The position numbers and the translations under genes were made by a program. Of a stretch of DNA of 64,000 bases, positions 25,939 to 36,210 are shown in pieces. The notes below the pieces were generated by a model, which made no database searches, was not told where the DNA came from, and saw only the letters and a program-made list of their open reading frames with translations. Location of the stretch: NCBI RefSeq assembly GCF_014201115.1, contig NZ_JACHDO010000001.1, forward strand, positions 5,580,001-5,644,000. Reading direction: 5' to 3'. Within the stretch, counting starts at the first letter, position 1; every line of letters starts with the position of its first letter. This DNA comes from Nocardiopsis metallicus. Its GTDB lineage: Bacteria; Actinomycetota; Actinomycetes; Streptosporangiales; Streptosporangiaceae.

Positions 25939-26169
25939 ATGTCGATATGGGCGTCAGACAACCGCAACGGCCACGTCCGCGAGGCCCTGACCCTCCTGCT
26001 GTCCCAGGGGGTGATCGACGACTTCCGGATCCGTCCGGACGACGAGTTCCCCTTCCGGGTTCAGGTGCCGGCCGGGATCATCCCGATGACCGAGCATCAG
26101 GCCGCGCACTTCGCCCTGGGCGCCGCGACCGCGCACTTCGGCGACCTGGCCCGCGACGGAGCGCCCTAG
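25939..26169 (+). CDS. Small protein of unknown function (76 residues)
   Basis: A compact acidic protein starting MSIWASDNRNGHVREALTLL, with features such as VIDDFRIRPDDEFPFRVQVP. No signal or membrane segment. GC-rich third positions support coding. Its 3' end overlaps the convergent esterase gene by 4 bp. A strong terminator upstream means it has its own promoter. Family not recognised. Confidence 0.65.
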   Translation: MSIWASDNRNGHVREALTLLLSQGVIDDFRIRPDDEFPFRVQVPAGIIPMTEHQAAHFALGAATAHFGDLARDGAP

Positions 26170-27440
26170 CAGCCGCCCGGGGTGAGCTCCCAGTAGCCCG
26201 GTACGGTCTCGGTCACCGAGGTCGTGACCGCGACGTTCCAGAGTCCGAGCAGGTCGTCGGAGCCCAGAGCGTAGGCGTTTCCGACCCGGTGTTCGGCGCG
26301 TCCGTCGCTGACGTGCGCGTAGTTGCTGGCGGTCACGCACTCACCGGCGGGCGGGTCCGTGGGCTCCTCCGTCGGCGGGTCCGTGGGCTCCTCCGTGGGC
26401 GGGTCGGTCGGTTCCTCCGTGGGCGGGTCGGTGGGCTCTCCGCCGGCAGGGCCCCCGATGCCCCAGAACTGGGCGGTGTAGCCGGTGGAGCAGACGGTGT
26501 CGAGGAAGTAGGCGCCCGCCGTTCCGCAGCCCGCGGGCGGGTCGACGGGGGTGCCGTGGCCCATTCCGGAGACGGAGAAGTACGCGACCGCCGCGTCGCC
26601 CGCGCCGCCACCGTAGTACTCGGCCGTGGTGGAGCCGGGCAGGCTCACCGTGCTGTCGGGGGTGGTGGGCAGATCCCACGCGTTCACCCACTGGGCCGTG
26701 CTGGCGTCGCCGTTGGCCGGGGCCACCGTGGTGTCCGACGTGCCGTGCCAGACCGCCACCCGGGGCAGGCCGGCGCCGTCGGGGAGTTTGGCGCGGACCC
26801 GGTCGCCCCACTGCTCGGGTGTCTGGGTCTTGCCGGGGTTCATGCAGATGAAGGCGTCGACCATGCTGGTGGCGCAGCCGACCGGGATGCCCGCGACGAT
26901 ACTGCCGCCCGCGAAGAGGTCGGGGTAGGCGGCGAGGAGTTCGGCGGCCATGGCGCCTCCCGCGGACAGACCCGAGACGTACACCCGGTCGGCGTCCAGG
27001 CCGTGTTCAGCGACGGCGTGCCGCACCATCGAGGCCACCGACTGCGCCTCCCCGGAGCCCCGGGCCACGTCGCCGGACTCGAACCAGTTGAAGCAGCCGG
27101 TGGCGTTGTTGGCTCTGCTCTGTTCGGCGTAGACGAGGGCGAGGCCGGACTCCTCGGCCTGTTCGGCCCAGCCGGAGTGCCGGTGGTAGGCGGCGGCGTC
27201 CTGGGCGCAGCCGTGCAGGAGCACGACCAGGGGAGCACCCGCGGGGAGGGCGTCGGGTACGTACTCGTACATGGCGAGGTTGCCGGGGTCGGCGCCGAAG
27301 GAGGGCACCGGGGCGAGTTCGGCGGCCGAGGCGCGCGGCGCGGCGACGACCAGGGCGGCCGCGGTCAGCAGCAGGACGGCGGCCAGGACGAGAAGTACGG
27401 GCAGGGGTCTCAGGGCTGGGGAGTGAGTGGGGGAGTGCAT
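26166..27440 (-). CDS. Secreted PHB depolymerase-family esterase
   Basis: A 424-residue exoenzyme: signal peptide with cleavage near ASAA (about 38-40), then an alpha/beta-hydrolase domain of the PHB-depolymerase/CE1 esterase family. The lipase box is GLSAGG (Ser159), with candidate Asp236 (GTSDTTV) and His295 (GMGHGT); LHGCAQD (74-80) forms the oxyanion-hole region. A linker of four EPTDPPTE repeats (about 335-363) leads to a C-terminal domain (about 365-424, ECVTASNYAHV ... ELTPGGC) that probably binds substrate. It should hydrolyse poly(3-hydroxybutyrate) or a similar ester outside the cell; CE1 relatives also include feruloyl and acetylxylan esterases. The divergent 3-hydroxybutyrate dehydrogenase favours PHB. 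Confidence 0.85.
   Translation of the reverse strand: MHSPTHSPALRPLPVLLVLAAVLLLTAAALVVAAPRASAAELAPVPSFGADPGNLAMYEYVPDALPAGAPLVVLLHGCAQDAAAYHRHSGWAEQAEESGLALVYAEQSRANNATGCFNWFESGDVARGSGEAQSVASMVRHAVAEHGLDADRVYVSGLSAGGAMAAELLAAYPDLFAGGSIVAGIPVGCATSMVDAFICMNPGKTQTPEQWGDRVRAKLPDGAGLPRVAVWHGTSDTTVAPANGDASTAQWVNAWDLPTTPDSTVSLPGSTTAEYYGGGAGDAAVAYFSVSGMGHGTPVDPPAGCGTAGAYFLDTVCSTGYTAQFWGIGGPAGGEPTDPPTEEPTDPPTEEPTDPPTEEPTDPPAGECVTASNYAHVSDGRAEHRVGNAYALGSDDLLGLWNVAVTTSVTETVPGYWELTPGGC
26350..26438 (-). repeat. Four copies of a 24-bp in-frame repeat (linker)
   Basis: This encodes the EPTDPPTE linker between catalytic and C-terminal domains of the esterase; copies differ at a few positions. Such Pro/Thr linkers are common in multidomain exoenzymes. 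Confidence 0.85.
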
Positions 27441-27675
27441 GGTGCGGCTCCGGGATCGGACGGTGAGCGGGGGGAGGTTCGGCCGAACCGGTGCCCCGAA
27501 GCCTAGAGTCGAAGTGGCCCGCGCACCATGTAGGAGGGACTCTGGTCACCTACCCCTGGCCCGTGGGAAGTCCACAGTCGCCTTTCCCCGCATGGGCGAG
27601 GGCCACATGTGCGCCGCCGGGGGTGTGTTCCCATGCCCTATCCCCCGGGATGCGGGCCCGGCCTAGTTTTCTGGC

Positions 27676-34232: not shown

Positions 34233-35032
34233 GCGCCGTCCCCGAGGTAGGCGGCCTGCACGTCGGGGTCGGCCATCGCCGACTCCGGGTCGGTGAGGGC
34301 CAGGAGCGCGCCGTGGTGCATGACGGCCAGGCGGTCGGCCATGTCGAGGAGCACCTCCATGTGGTGTTCGACCATGAGGACCGTGCAGCCCTGTTCGCGG
34401 TGCACGTCCTGGATGACGGTGGTGAGTTCGCCGACCTCCCCGGCGCTCACCCCGGCCATCGGCTCGTCCAGGAGGATGAGCCGGGGGCCGCGGGCGAGCA
34501 GGAGTGCGAGTTCGAGCTTGCGTTTGTCACCGTGGGAGAGGTCCCCGGCGAGGACGTCCGCGCGGTGGGAGAGCCGGACCAGGTCCAGGACCCGGGTGGC
34601 CTCGGCCCCGCCGTCGGGGGCGGCCAGGCGCCAGAAGCGGCGGGACTCCCCGGTGCGGGCCTGCACGGCCAGGCCGGCGTTGGCGCCGACGGTGAGGTCG
34701 GCGAAGACGCTGGAGGTCTGGAAGGTGCGGCCCATGCCGAGCCGGGCGCGGCGGTAGGGAGCGAACCGGGTGACGTCGGTCCCGGCCAGGGAGACGGTAC
34801 CGGCGGTGGGTCTGGTCAGTCCGGACACGAGGTTGAACAGGGAGGTCTTTCCTGCTCCGTTGGGGCCGATGAGCGCGACGAACTCGCCTTCGGCGACGGC
34901 CATGTCGATGGCGTCGACGATGACGGCGCCGCCCACGAACCAGCTGAGGCCGGCCAGGGCGAGGACCGGAGGGGGTCCGGGTTCGGGTGCGGCCGGGGCG
35001 GGTGTGATCCCGGGGGTGGTGTCTGTGTGCAC
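34229..35032 (-). CDS. livG: ABC transporter ATP-binding protein (LivG-like)
   Basis: A 267-residue ATPase with a Pro/Ala-rich 25-residue lead, Walker A GPNGAGKTS, the LivG-type GMGRTFQTSSVFADLTV, a signature region LSHGDKRKLELA (SHGD replaces the canonical SGGQ, as is common in LivG) and Walker B LILLDEPMAGVS. GTG start at 35032, 2 bp after the binding-protein stop. Confidence 0.92.
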   Translation of the reverse strand: MHTDTTPGITPAPAAPEPGPPPVLALAGLSWFVGGAVIVDAIDMAVAEGEFVALIGPNGAGKTSLFNLVSGLTRPTAGTVSLAGTDVTRFAPYRRARLGMGRTFQTSSVFADLTVGANAGLAVQARTGESRRFWRLAAPDGGAEATRVLDLVRLSHRADVLAGDLSHGDKRKLELALLLARGPRLILLDEPMAGVSAGEVGELTTVIQDVHREQGCTVLMVEHHMEVLLDMADRLAVMHHGALLALTDPESAMADPDVQAAYLGDGA

Positions 35033-35034
35033 GA

Positions 35035-36210
35035 CTACTCCGTGACCGAGGGCTCGACGTCGGCGGCGGGGACCTCCGCGACGAGTTCGGGGTGGGCGCC
35101 GTCGCCCTCGCCGACCAGTTCGACCTGGTACATCGGCTGGATGAGGGCGTGGTCCTCGGCCCGGATGTGCAGTTCGCCCTTGACCCCGTCGAAGGTCCAG
35201 CCGCTGAGGGCGTCGATCCGGTCGGCGGTCTGGTCACCGGCCCCGGCGGCGTGCACCGCCATCTGCGCGGCGGTGAACCCGTCGGGGGTGAACAGGTCGA
35301 CCACGCCGCCTTCGGCCTCGACCCGTTCCTTCATGGCCAGGGCCTCGTCGGTGTCGGCGGCGCCGTCGAAGTAGTGGGAGAGGAAGGAGATGCGATCGCC
35401 CGCGGCGCCGAAGATCGGGTAGGAGGGCTTGATGTCCAGCCCGGTGACGACTTCGGTGGAGTCGAGGATGCCCTGCTGGTCCAGGGCCTGCCACATGGCG
35501 GAGGCGGTCTCGCCCGCCCAGGCGACGAAGACGAGGTCGGCGTCGGCCCGGTTGACCTGTTCCGCGAAGGGGGTGAGGTCGGTGGTGTCGGGCGGGGCGA
35601 GGACGCTGTCCACGTTGGCGCCGCGGTCGCCCAGGACCTCGGTGACGGCGTCGACGTTGTCCTGGCCGAAGGCGTTCTGCTGGGCCAGGACGACCACGTC
35701 GGAGCCGTCGGGGTCGTCCATGAACGTGCTCGCGGTGAGGATGTCCTGGTAGGTCTGGCGGCCGGAGCGGAAGGTGTGGCCGTTGATACCGGTGATGGCG
35801 TCGGTGGCGGCCGAGCCGGAGATGAACAGGACGTCGTTCTGCTCGGCGAGCGGGGCGACCTGGACGGCGATCCCGGAGGCGGTGGAGCCGGCGATGATCT
35901 GGTGGCCGTCGCCGATGAGTTCGCGGGTGGCCGAGACGGCGTTGCTGGGCTCGCCCGCGTCGTCCATGTAGGTGACCTCGACGGGGCGGCCGTCGATCTC
36001 CAGGGAGCCGCCGGTGGCGTGGTCCAGCCCGGCCTCGAAGCCCTGCCGGTACTGCTCTCCGTAGGTGGCCAGGGGGCCGGTGGCGGAGTAGACGATGCCG
36101 GCCTTGATCGGGCCTTCGCCGTCACCTCCGGCGGCCTCGCCGGGGGTTCCGCAGGCGGTCGTGGCGAGCGCGACCGCGAGGGTTCCCGCGGCCAGGGGGG
36201 TCTTGCGCAT
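35035..36210 (-). CDS. livK: ABC transporter substrate-binding lipoprotein (LivK/HAAT family)
   Basis: A 391-residue lipoprotein with lipobox LATTAC (Cys20) and a type I periplasmic-binding fold (GPIKAGIVYSATGPLATYGEQY, GRPVEVTYMDDAGEPSNAVSA, VLFISGSAATDAI). Related proteins bind amino acids, amides or aromatic and aliphatic carboxylates. First gene of the livKGFHM-hydrolase operon. The strong GGAGGAAG before ATG 36210 fixes the start. The ligand cannot be read from sequence; the neighbourhood suggests hydroxybutyrate or short oligomers. Confidence 0.9.
   Translation of the reverse strand: MRKTPLAAGTLAVALATTACGTPGEAAGGDGEGPIKAGIVYSATGPLATYGEQYRQGFEAGLDHATGGSLEIDGRPVEVTYMDDAGEPSNAVSATRELIGDGHQIIAGSTASGIAVQVAPLAEQNDVLFISGSAATDAITGINGHTFRSGRQTYQDILTASTFMDDPDGSDVVVLAQQNAFGQDNVDAVTEVLGDRGANVDSVLAPPDTTDLTPFAEQVNRADADLVFVAWAGETASAMWQALDQQGILDSTEVVTGLDIKPSYPIFGAAGDRISFLSHYFDGAADTDEALAMKERVEAEGGVVDLFTPDGFTAAQMAVHAAGAGDQTADRIDALSGWTFDGVKGELHIRAEDHALIQPMYQVELVGEGDGAHPELVAEVPAADVEPSVTE

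Follow-up and report, generated by a model that had tools for sequence, protein, structure and literature searches.

Analysis of a 64,000-nt stretch of the Nocardiopsis metallicus genome (7.78 Mb, 2 contigs), referred to below as the window, places at positions 26166-36210 a nine-gene locus in which predicted poly(3-hydroxybutyrate) (PHB) utilization genes lie beside an ATP-binding cassette (ABC) importer of the Liv type (Table 1). A predicted secreted polyhydroxyalkanoate (PHA) depolymerase, PhaZ, is divergent from a short-chain dehydrogenase/reductase (SDR) of the 3-hydroxybutyrate dehydrogenase (BDH) type, which is followed by a GAF-PucR regulator. Facing them is a minus-strand operon in the order SBP-LivG-LivF-LivH-LivM-hydrolase, where SBP is a substrate-binding protein and the hydrolase a cytoplasmic alpha/beta hydrolase (ABH). 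The gene families, gene order and overlaps claimed in the original prediction were all recovered, junctions included, and the family names of the nine genes agree with the Pfam and NCBIfam profile matches. PhaZ and the SDR are separated by 235 bp, and the PucR gene has a TTG start and overlaps the SDR stop codon. A 2-bp gap separates SBP from LivG, and the remaining four junctions of the operon are GTGA or ATGA stop/start overlaps. The original prediction was silent on a 75-bp 3' overlap of the convergent PucR and hydrolase genes (30444-30518); these 3' ends are also close or overlapping in several relatives.

Table 1. Features of the locus (window coordinates)
Feature	Position	Strand	Basis
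PhaZ, predicted secreted type 1 short-chain-length PHA depolymerase; linker rich in Pro/Thr/Glu, near-match to a binding-domain motif at the C terminus	26166..27440	-	NF050058
Degenerate ACATGT-N8-TCAC copy (2 mismatches) upstream of PhaZ	27514..27531	-	upstream alignment
BDH, 3-hydroxybutyrate dehydrogenase-type SDR	27676..28533	+	TIGR01963, active-site residues
GAF-PucR transcriptional regulator	about 28518..30518	+	Pfam GAF, GGDEF_2, HTH_30
ABH, cytoplasmic alpha/beta hydrolase	30444..31349	-	Abhydrolase_1/6; Ser107 and His270
LivM-type permease	31346..32515	-	BPD_transp_2
LivH-type permease	32512..33411	-	BPD_transp_2
LivF-type ATPase	33408..34232	-	ABC_tran
LivG-type ATPase	34229..35032	-	ABC_tran
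SBP, lipoprotein substrate-binding protein	35035..36210	-	Peripla_BP_6; Cys20 invariant in 31/31 (alignment A2)
Exact ACATGT-N8-TCAC upstream of the SBP operon	36308..36325	-	upstream alignment

The assignment of PhaZ as a secreted type 1 PHA depolymerase is supported by its score on NF050058, the model for extracellular short-chain-length enzymes of this type (300.2 bits; cut-off, 150). Its C-terminal SNYAHVSDGRA shows one deviation (A to D) from the sxxxHxxAGRa motif that an excerpt of PMC7199957 gives for substrate-binding domains, and the motif is exact in two relatives (L033 and L041). The C-terminal 72 residues matched 10 records of a plasmid collection (E <= 0.1); in 8 of these, the matching gene carries the annotation PHB depolymerase family esterase. 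The SDR passed the BDH model TIGR01963 narrowly (313.4 bits; cut-off, 307.05) and also NF009093 (268 bits; cut-off, 258), and every one of the 13 solved chains matching it at E <= 1e-40 is named hydroxybutyrate dehydrogenase. It retains eight of the nine positions that we take, with their numbering and roles, to be the catalytic and substrate residues of BDH (Q94, S142, H144, K152, Y155, K159, W187, Q196 and W257). Position 187 is Tyr rather than Trp, as in 27 of 32 aligned BDH-type SDRs (Trp in 5), and the other eight are identical in 32/32; this residue table leaves out L127, and the SDRs of L131 and L134, which are without the residues, were aligned and not counted as BDH. Because an acetoacetyl-CoA synthetase is encoded elsewhere in the N. 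metallicus genome (840.4 bits; cut-off, 520.9), acetoacetate can be activated. A 3-oxoacid CoA-transferase (SCOT) was rejected for this organism, whose genome yielded one match of 48.4 bits against a cut-off of 243.55 and no CoA-transferase B subunit over the cut-off.

The importer has the family make-up of Liv/Urt-type systems, with a Peripla_BP_6 SBP, two BPD_transp_2 permeases and two ABC_tran ATPases, and we take these systems to be the hydrophobic amino acid transporter family. It shares with them the five subunits and the usual gene content and differs from them in its translational coupling to an alpha/beta hydrolase, its linkage to PHB and ketone-body genes, and its missed Liv/Urt cut-offs. 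On the Liv and Urt models, the SBP reached 53.5 bits (cut-off, 477) and 31.1 bits (cut-off, 492.75), respectively, the best permease scores were 189.8 of 250.3 and 113.8 of 296.2 bits, and the best ATPase scores were 203.6 of 285.8 and 196.6 of 304.1 bits. When a profile of 31 SBP homologues was compared with solved chains, 3n0x ranked first (205.7 bits), followed by 3nnd, 4f06 and 4evs (102.9 bits), and LivJ (1z15) reached only 54.7 bits. The nearest structural neighbours of the SBP model (predicted local distance difference test score, pLDDT, 86.7) were 3n0x (Z 42.3), 4f06 (Z 40.1) and 4evs (Z 40.0). By profile and structure, the closest solved relatives are Rhodopseudomonas palustris RPA4397 (3n0x) and RPA0985 (4evs, solved with 4-hydroxybenzoate), at only about 30% and 21% identity, respectively. 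Thr256 of the SBP, also Thr in 3n0x and 4f06, aligns with a Glu of leucine-bound 4n0q that presumably binds the ligand's amino group. This Thr is conserved in 31/31 core sequences and in 33/35 when distant ones are included, and its frequency in alignment A2 is 90% or more. Transport of branched-chain amino acids or urea is disfavoured by the missed cut-offs together with residue 256. In the plasmid collection, the SBP had 3 distant records only (E <= 1e-30). The coupled ABH is by profile score a generic alpha/beta hydrolase, and its Ser107 (in GHSMG) and His270 are present in 41/41 homologues. Its predicted structure (pLDDT 90.5) had 3kxp as best VIA match (Z 27.6, 262 residues, root mean square deviation 2.5); the Bacillus thuringiensis PHB depolymerase 8ynv (Z 22.9) was one among many similar structural matches.

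Conservation was checked within the genus in 36 other genomes, and the 17 loci with an SBP were read. The SBP occurs in 17/36 genomes at 77-84% identity, G007 having a remnant only, and the SDR is present in all 17 SBP-bearing genomes vs 9/19 of the rest. The nine-gene order is complete in 13/17 of these loci and in both loci of the genus Thermobifida (L096 and L097), which argues that it is more than chance. In L044 and L045, LivM and the hydrolase are separated by about 5-6 kb of inserted DNA, and part of the far end of these loci is missing in the stretch read; L039 and L043 are cut by contig ends, and further pieces lie in L063-L065. The inserts (L044, about 4100-9300; L045, about 8800-14500) are unrelated, and by eye that of L044 contains an IS30-like transposase and XRE-type genes. 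In G007 (L048) remnants of the SBP and hydrolase lie side by side, and in eight further genomes with an SDR or a remnant (L049-L056) the intact importer and hydrolase genes are gone, the flank on the 23443 side being kept in 7/8 and that on the 37407 side in 7/8. In the very close G014 (L049; SDR 96%, PucR 99%), pieces of PhaZ, hydrolase, LivM and LivH persist. Decayed copies were seen in L048, L049, L053, L055 and L056, some with broken PucR, SDR or PhaZ frames. The acyl-CoA ligase gene at 23443-25116 was excluded from the set because it is nearest to FadD12, under the cut-offs of all 25 models shown, and still flanks loci that have lost the importer.

In a class sample of 394 genomes, the SBP was found in 31 (E <= 1e-30), including the G007 remnant, which leaves 30 intact loci, all of which were read. 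The hydrolase is present in 28/30 (not in G232 and G389), the BDH-type SDR in 25/30 (not in G232, G389, G318, G417 and G231), SCOT A and B in 7/30 and an acetyl-CoA acetyltransferase (62% or more) in 7/30. The arrangement varies: the importer operon convergent with PucR-SDR (Nocardiopsis, L101 and L105), a single operon SBP-LivGFHM-ligase-TetR-SDR-hydrolase-SCOT A/B (L106, L108, L117, L119, L121, L123 and L125), and hydrolase plus SDR divergent from the SBP (L109 and L126-L130). The last is found in six genomes of 1.4-1.9 Mb with a locus G+C of 45-47%, each with a more distant BDH of its own next to the hydrolase; the L109 SDR passed NF009093 (288.8 of 258) and missed TIGR01963 (281.3 of 307.05). 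A type 1 PhaZ lies in 10/30 loci, in three arrangements: eight have the Nocardiopsis/Thermobifida layout (one partly read), in L102 it is divergent from the SBP, and in L118 it directly follows the hydrolase and, at 28% identity, still scores 179.3 bits on NF050058. At the genome level, a BDH (best match, E <= 1e-60) occurs in 23/30 SBP genomes vs 114/364 others (Fisher p 1.3e-6, relatedness uncorrected). The hydrolase is also linked to BDH without a linked importer in L060, L098-L100, L103 and L104, there together with a second hydrolase; those scored, of L106 and L098, gave 111.4 and 106 bits, below the cut-off of 300 of the model for intracellular PHA depolymerases. The best 80 of 561 related stretches from named organisms contain importer homologues of Nocardiopsis, Thermobifida fusca, Streptomonospora, Streptomyces, Kitasatospora, Micromonospora and others, with the hydrolase in 40, BDH in 26, SCOT A and B in 20 and PhaZ in 20; matches cut at contig or locus ends, such as the L197 SDR and the L179 PhaZ, are excluded. 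Among these 80, PhaZ occurs in 11/13 Nocardiopsis, T. fusca, both Streptomonospora, 5/15 Streptomyces and Rugosimonospora, and outside a Micromonosporaceae-type group 47/49 loci contain at least one of hydrolase, BDH, SCOT and PhaZ in the DNA covered, the exceptions being L145 and L179.

One of the two class loci without hydrolase, that of G232, holds a solo importer and is organised like the named Micromonospora loci. In 31 genomes of its genus (g78), the SBP was detected in 27 and a PhaZ of 52-60% identity in the same 27; as to the remaining four, G433 and G133 have only 35-37% PhaZ homologues, and nothing matched at E <= 1e-40 in G434 or G436. A BDH is present in 28/31 (not in G433, G133 and G434). 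The SBP and PhaZ genes are unlinked, for example about 1.05 Mb apart in G442. Because presence and absence agree in 31/31 genomes, the two genes appear to travel together even when unlinked; full agreement with four absences would arise at random once in 31,465, relatedness uncorrected.

Alignment of the upstream regions of Nocardiopsis, Thermobifida and Streptomonospora revealed a rare shared motif, ACATGT-N8-TCAC. It is exact upstream of the SBP in 16/17 aligned loci (one mismatch in L139) and, on the PhaZ strand, upstream of PhaZ in 11/15. In seven whole genomes, 12 of the 26 exact matches lay at SBP or PhaZ promoters (14 possible), and a reversed control pattern gave 10 matches. When up to 2 mismatches are allowed, the window has about as many matches as chance predicts (27 vs 25.19 expected), so that weight rests only on the exact, conserved form. 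The other 14 sites were rejected as regulon members, no recurrent polyester or ketone-body gene being recognised by eye in the translations.

From the genes and their order, conservation, linkage, co-occurrence and shared motif, we infer the substrates of the encoded proteins and the role of PucR. The locus is probably, as judged from sequence, a system for scavenging extracellular PHB whose Liv-type importer takes up (R)-3-hydroxybutyrate (3HB) and/or its short oligomers. Secreted PhaZ would cut PHB to 3HB monomer and short oligomers, which the lipoprotein SBP would capture and the ABC transporter import. The cytoplasmic hydrolase would most likely cleave imported dimers or oligomers to 3HB, and BDH would oxidise 3HB to acetoacetate, to be activated by acetoacetyl-CoA synthetase or, in some relatives, by the SCOT of the same operon. 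PucR probably regulates the set. The polyester/3HB setting of the importer, one part of the original prediction, is supported by the linkage in many genera, the unlinked co-occurrence and the shared upstream motif, and by the profile scores and residue 256, which speak against an amino acid ligand. Uptake of oligomers is favoured on three grounds. Importer loci contain the hydrolase more often than a BDH, the hydrolase also adjoins BDH where no importer is linked, there with a second hydrolase, and products of this kind are reported for such enzymes: an excerpt of PMC3741128 reports monomers and dimers for the actinomycete enzyme PhaZSa of Streptomyces ascomycinicus, and one of PMC7199957 reports oligomers up to pentamers for another enzyme. 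We put forward, tentatively, that a class-wide Actinomycetes family of Liv-type importers takes up PhaZ-released (R)-3HB oligomers for cleavage inside by the coupled hydrolase, and that the same module might let the streamlined small-genome cells, which have no linked depolymerase, live on the PHB products of others.

Nevertheless, several observations weigh against these interpretations. Among the best 80 of 561 stretches, 31 Micromonosporaceae-type loci are without hydrolase, BDH, SCOT and PhaZ, and such solo importers without hydrolase speak against oligomer uptake in particular. G032 (L051) retains PhaZ, SDR and PucR without importer and hydrolase. Both findings speak against a dedicated importer, as the original prediction had it. 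That prediction named importers occurring without depolymerase and dehydrogenase as a refutation; these do occur, in 31/80, yet an unlinked PhaZ co-occurs in g78. The solo state looks derived, because the SBP tree puts the solo group sister (support 0.984) to Rugosimonospora, where hydrolase, PhaZ, PucR and BDH accompany the importer. Far more of the 394 genomes have a BDH than have the importer (137 vs 31), and ABH scored 32.4 bits on NF050089, the model for intracellular short-chain-length PHA depolymerases, far under the cut-off of 300. The motif evidence is suggestive only, because the motif was picked after the alignments had been viewed, and it was not found in six g78 promoter pairs. 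The SBP fold is not clearly apart from that of leucine binders and alone gives no decision on the ligand, since leucine-type 7jfn (Z 38.6) scores close behind the best neighbour.

An alternative that fits the solo importers, which exist without ABH, is that the importer carries only free 3HB (or acetoacetate) and that the hydrolase acts on another ester, such as the products of an intracellular depolymerase. The hydrolase linkage would then be explained by both routes ending in BDH, and in importer-less genomes ABH lies with BDH and another hydrolase, whose closest model is that of intracellular PHA depolymerases although it stays below the cut-off. Such a division of labour would leave two facts poorly accounted for, namely that ABH is found in more SBP loci than BDH (28/30 vs 25/30) and that ABH and importer are missing together in eight Nocardiopsis loci, and we regard it as rather unlikely.

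A different carboxylate, such as hydroxybenzoate or another acyl acid, handled beside PHB genes within a wider acyl-CoA region, would fit the 4-hydroxybenzoate in 4evs, a close structural neighbour of the SBP, and the other acyl-CoA genes that adjoin distant homologues (33-42%; L132-L134). It is improbable, however, in view of the neighbours that recur across genera, which are BDH, ABH, SCOT, thiolase and PhaZ, and of the co-occurrence of PhaZ even when unlinked. The usual annotation, the Pfam families and the similar fold would suit an ordinary branched-chain amino acid importer lying next to PHB genes by chance. An amino acid ligand is spoken against by the missed cut-offs, with the SBP far short of its Liv threshold and the other subunits also short of theirs, and by Thr256 at the place of the Glu of 4n0q, so that we give this explanation very little credence.

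Capture and import of PHB products, as proposed here, would make the locus a concrete candidate for the poorly known step of bacterial 3HB uptake. In an excerpt of a 2021 review (PMC8000602), the transporter for this step is described as not known, HbuT of Bacillus subtilis being presumed; the importer has presumed 3HB uptake in common with HbuT, a presumed membrane transporter likened here by description only. According to an excerpt of PMC7187450, the Alcanivorax proteins ALC24_2998 and ALC24_2082, one annotated as a periplasmic binding protein and the other as an alpha-keto acid SBP, were raised on PHB and PHBV and were suggested to import the products; they too are compared by description only. 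PhaZ has the type 1 catalytic domain and the GLSAG lipase box in common with PhaZSa, and the excerpt of PMC3741128 names no importer or linked hydrolase, whereas the N. metallicus locus has both linked. A search of open-licence titles and abstract openings, with subscription journals outside it, returned nothing on uptake of 3HB or its oligomers by a Liv-type importer, nor did excerpts of PMC11893044 and PMC12542648 mention one. If the proposal holds, PHB turnover in actinomycetes would have a measurable, binding-protein-dependent step that could serve as a genomic marker, and transporters of a type chiefly associated with amino acids, urea and aromatic acids would gain a substrate derived from a polyester.

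Some further observations were made in related loci and in the window. In L057 (11593-12957), BDH and PucR lie beside a gene resembling a metabolite/H+ symporter (418.8 bits, missing the cut-off of 443.45), and similar genes occur near BDH and PucR in L058, L154, L178, L181 and L184; this symporter-like permease is possibly another route for the monomer. In some Micromonosporaceae-type loci, a different SDR (about 30% to BDH) lies downstream of the solo importer, as in L173 (14790-15536) and L116 (14658-15410). L133 (8935-17795), from an alphaproteobacterium, and L134 (7959-14452), from a Chloroflexota record, contain distant Liv-type importers (SBP 33%) with other alpha/beta hydrolases and acyl-CoA genes as neighbours. 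A complete 5S-23S-16S rRNA operon, with a G+C content below that of its surroundings, occupies positions 14786-19953 of the window on the minus strand.

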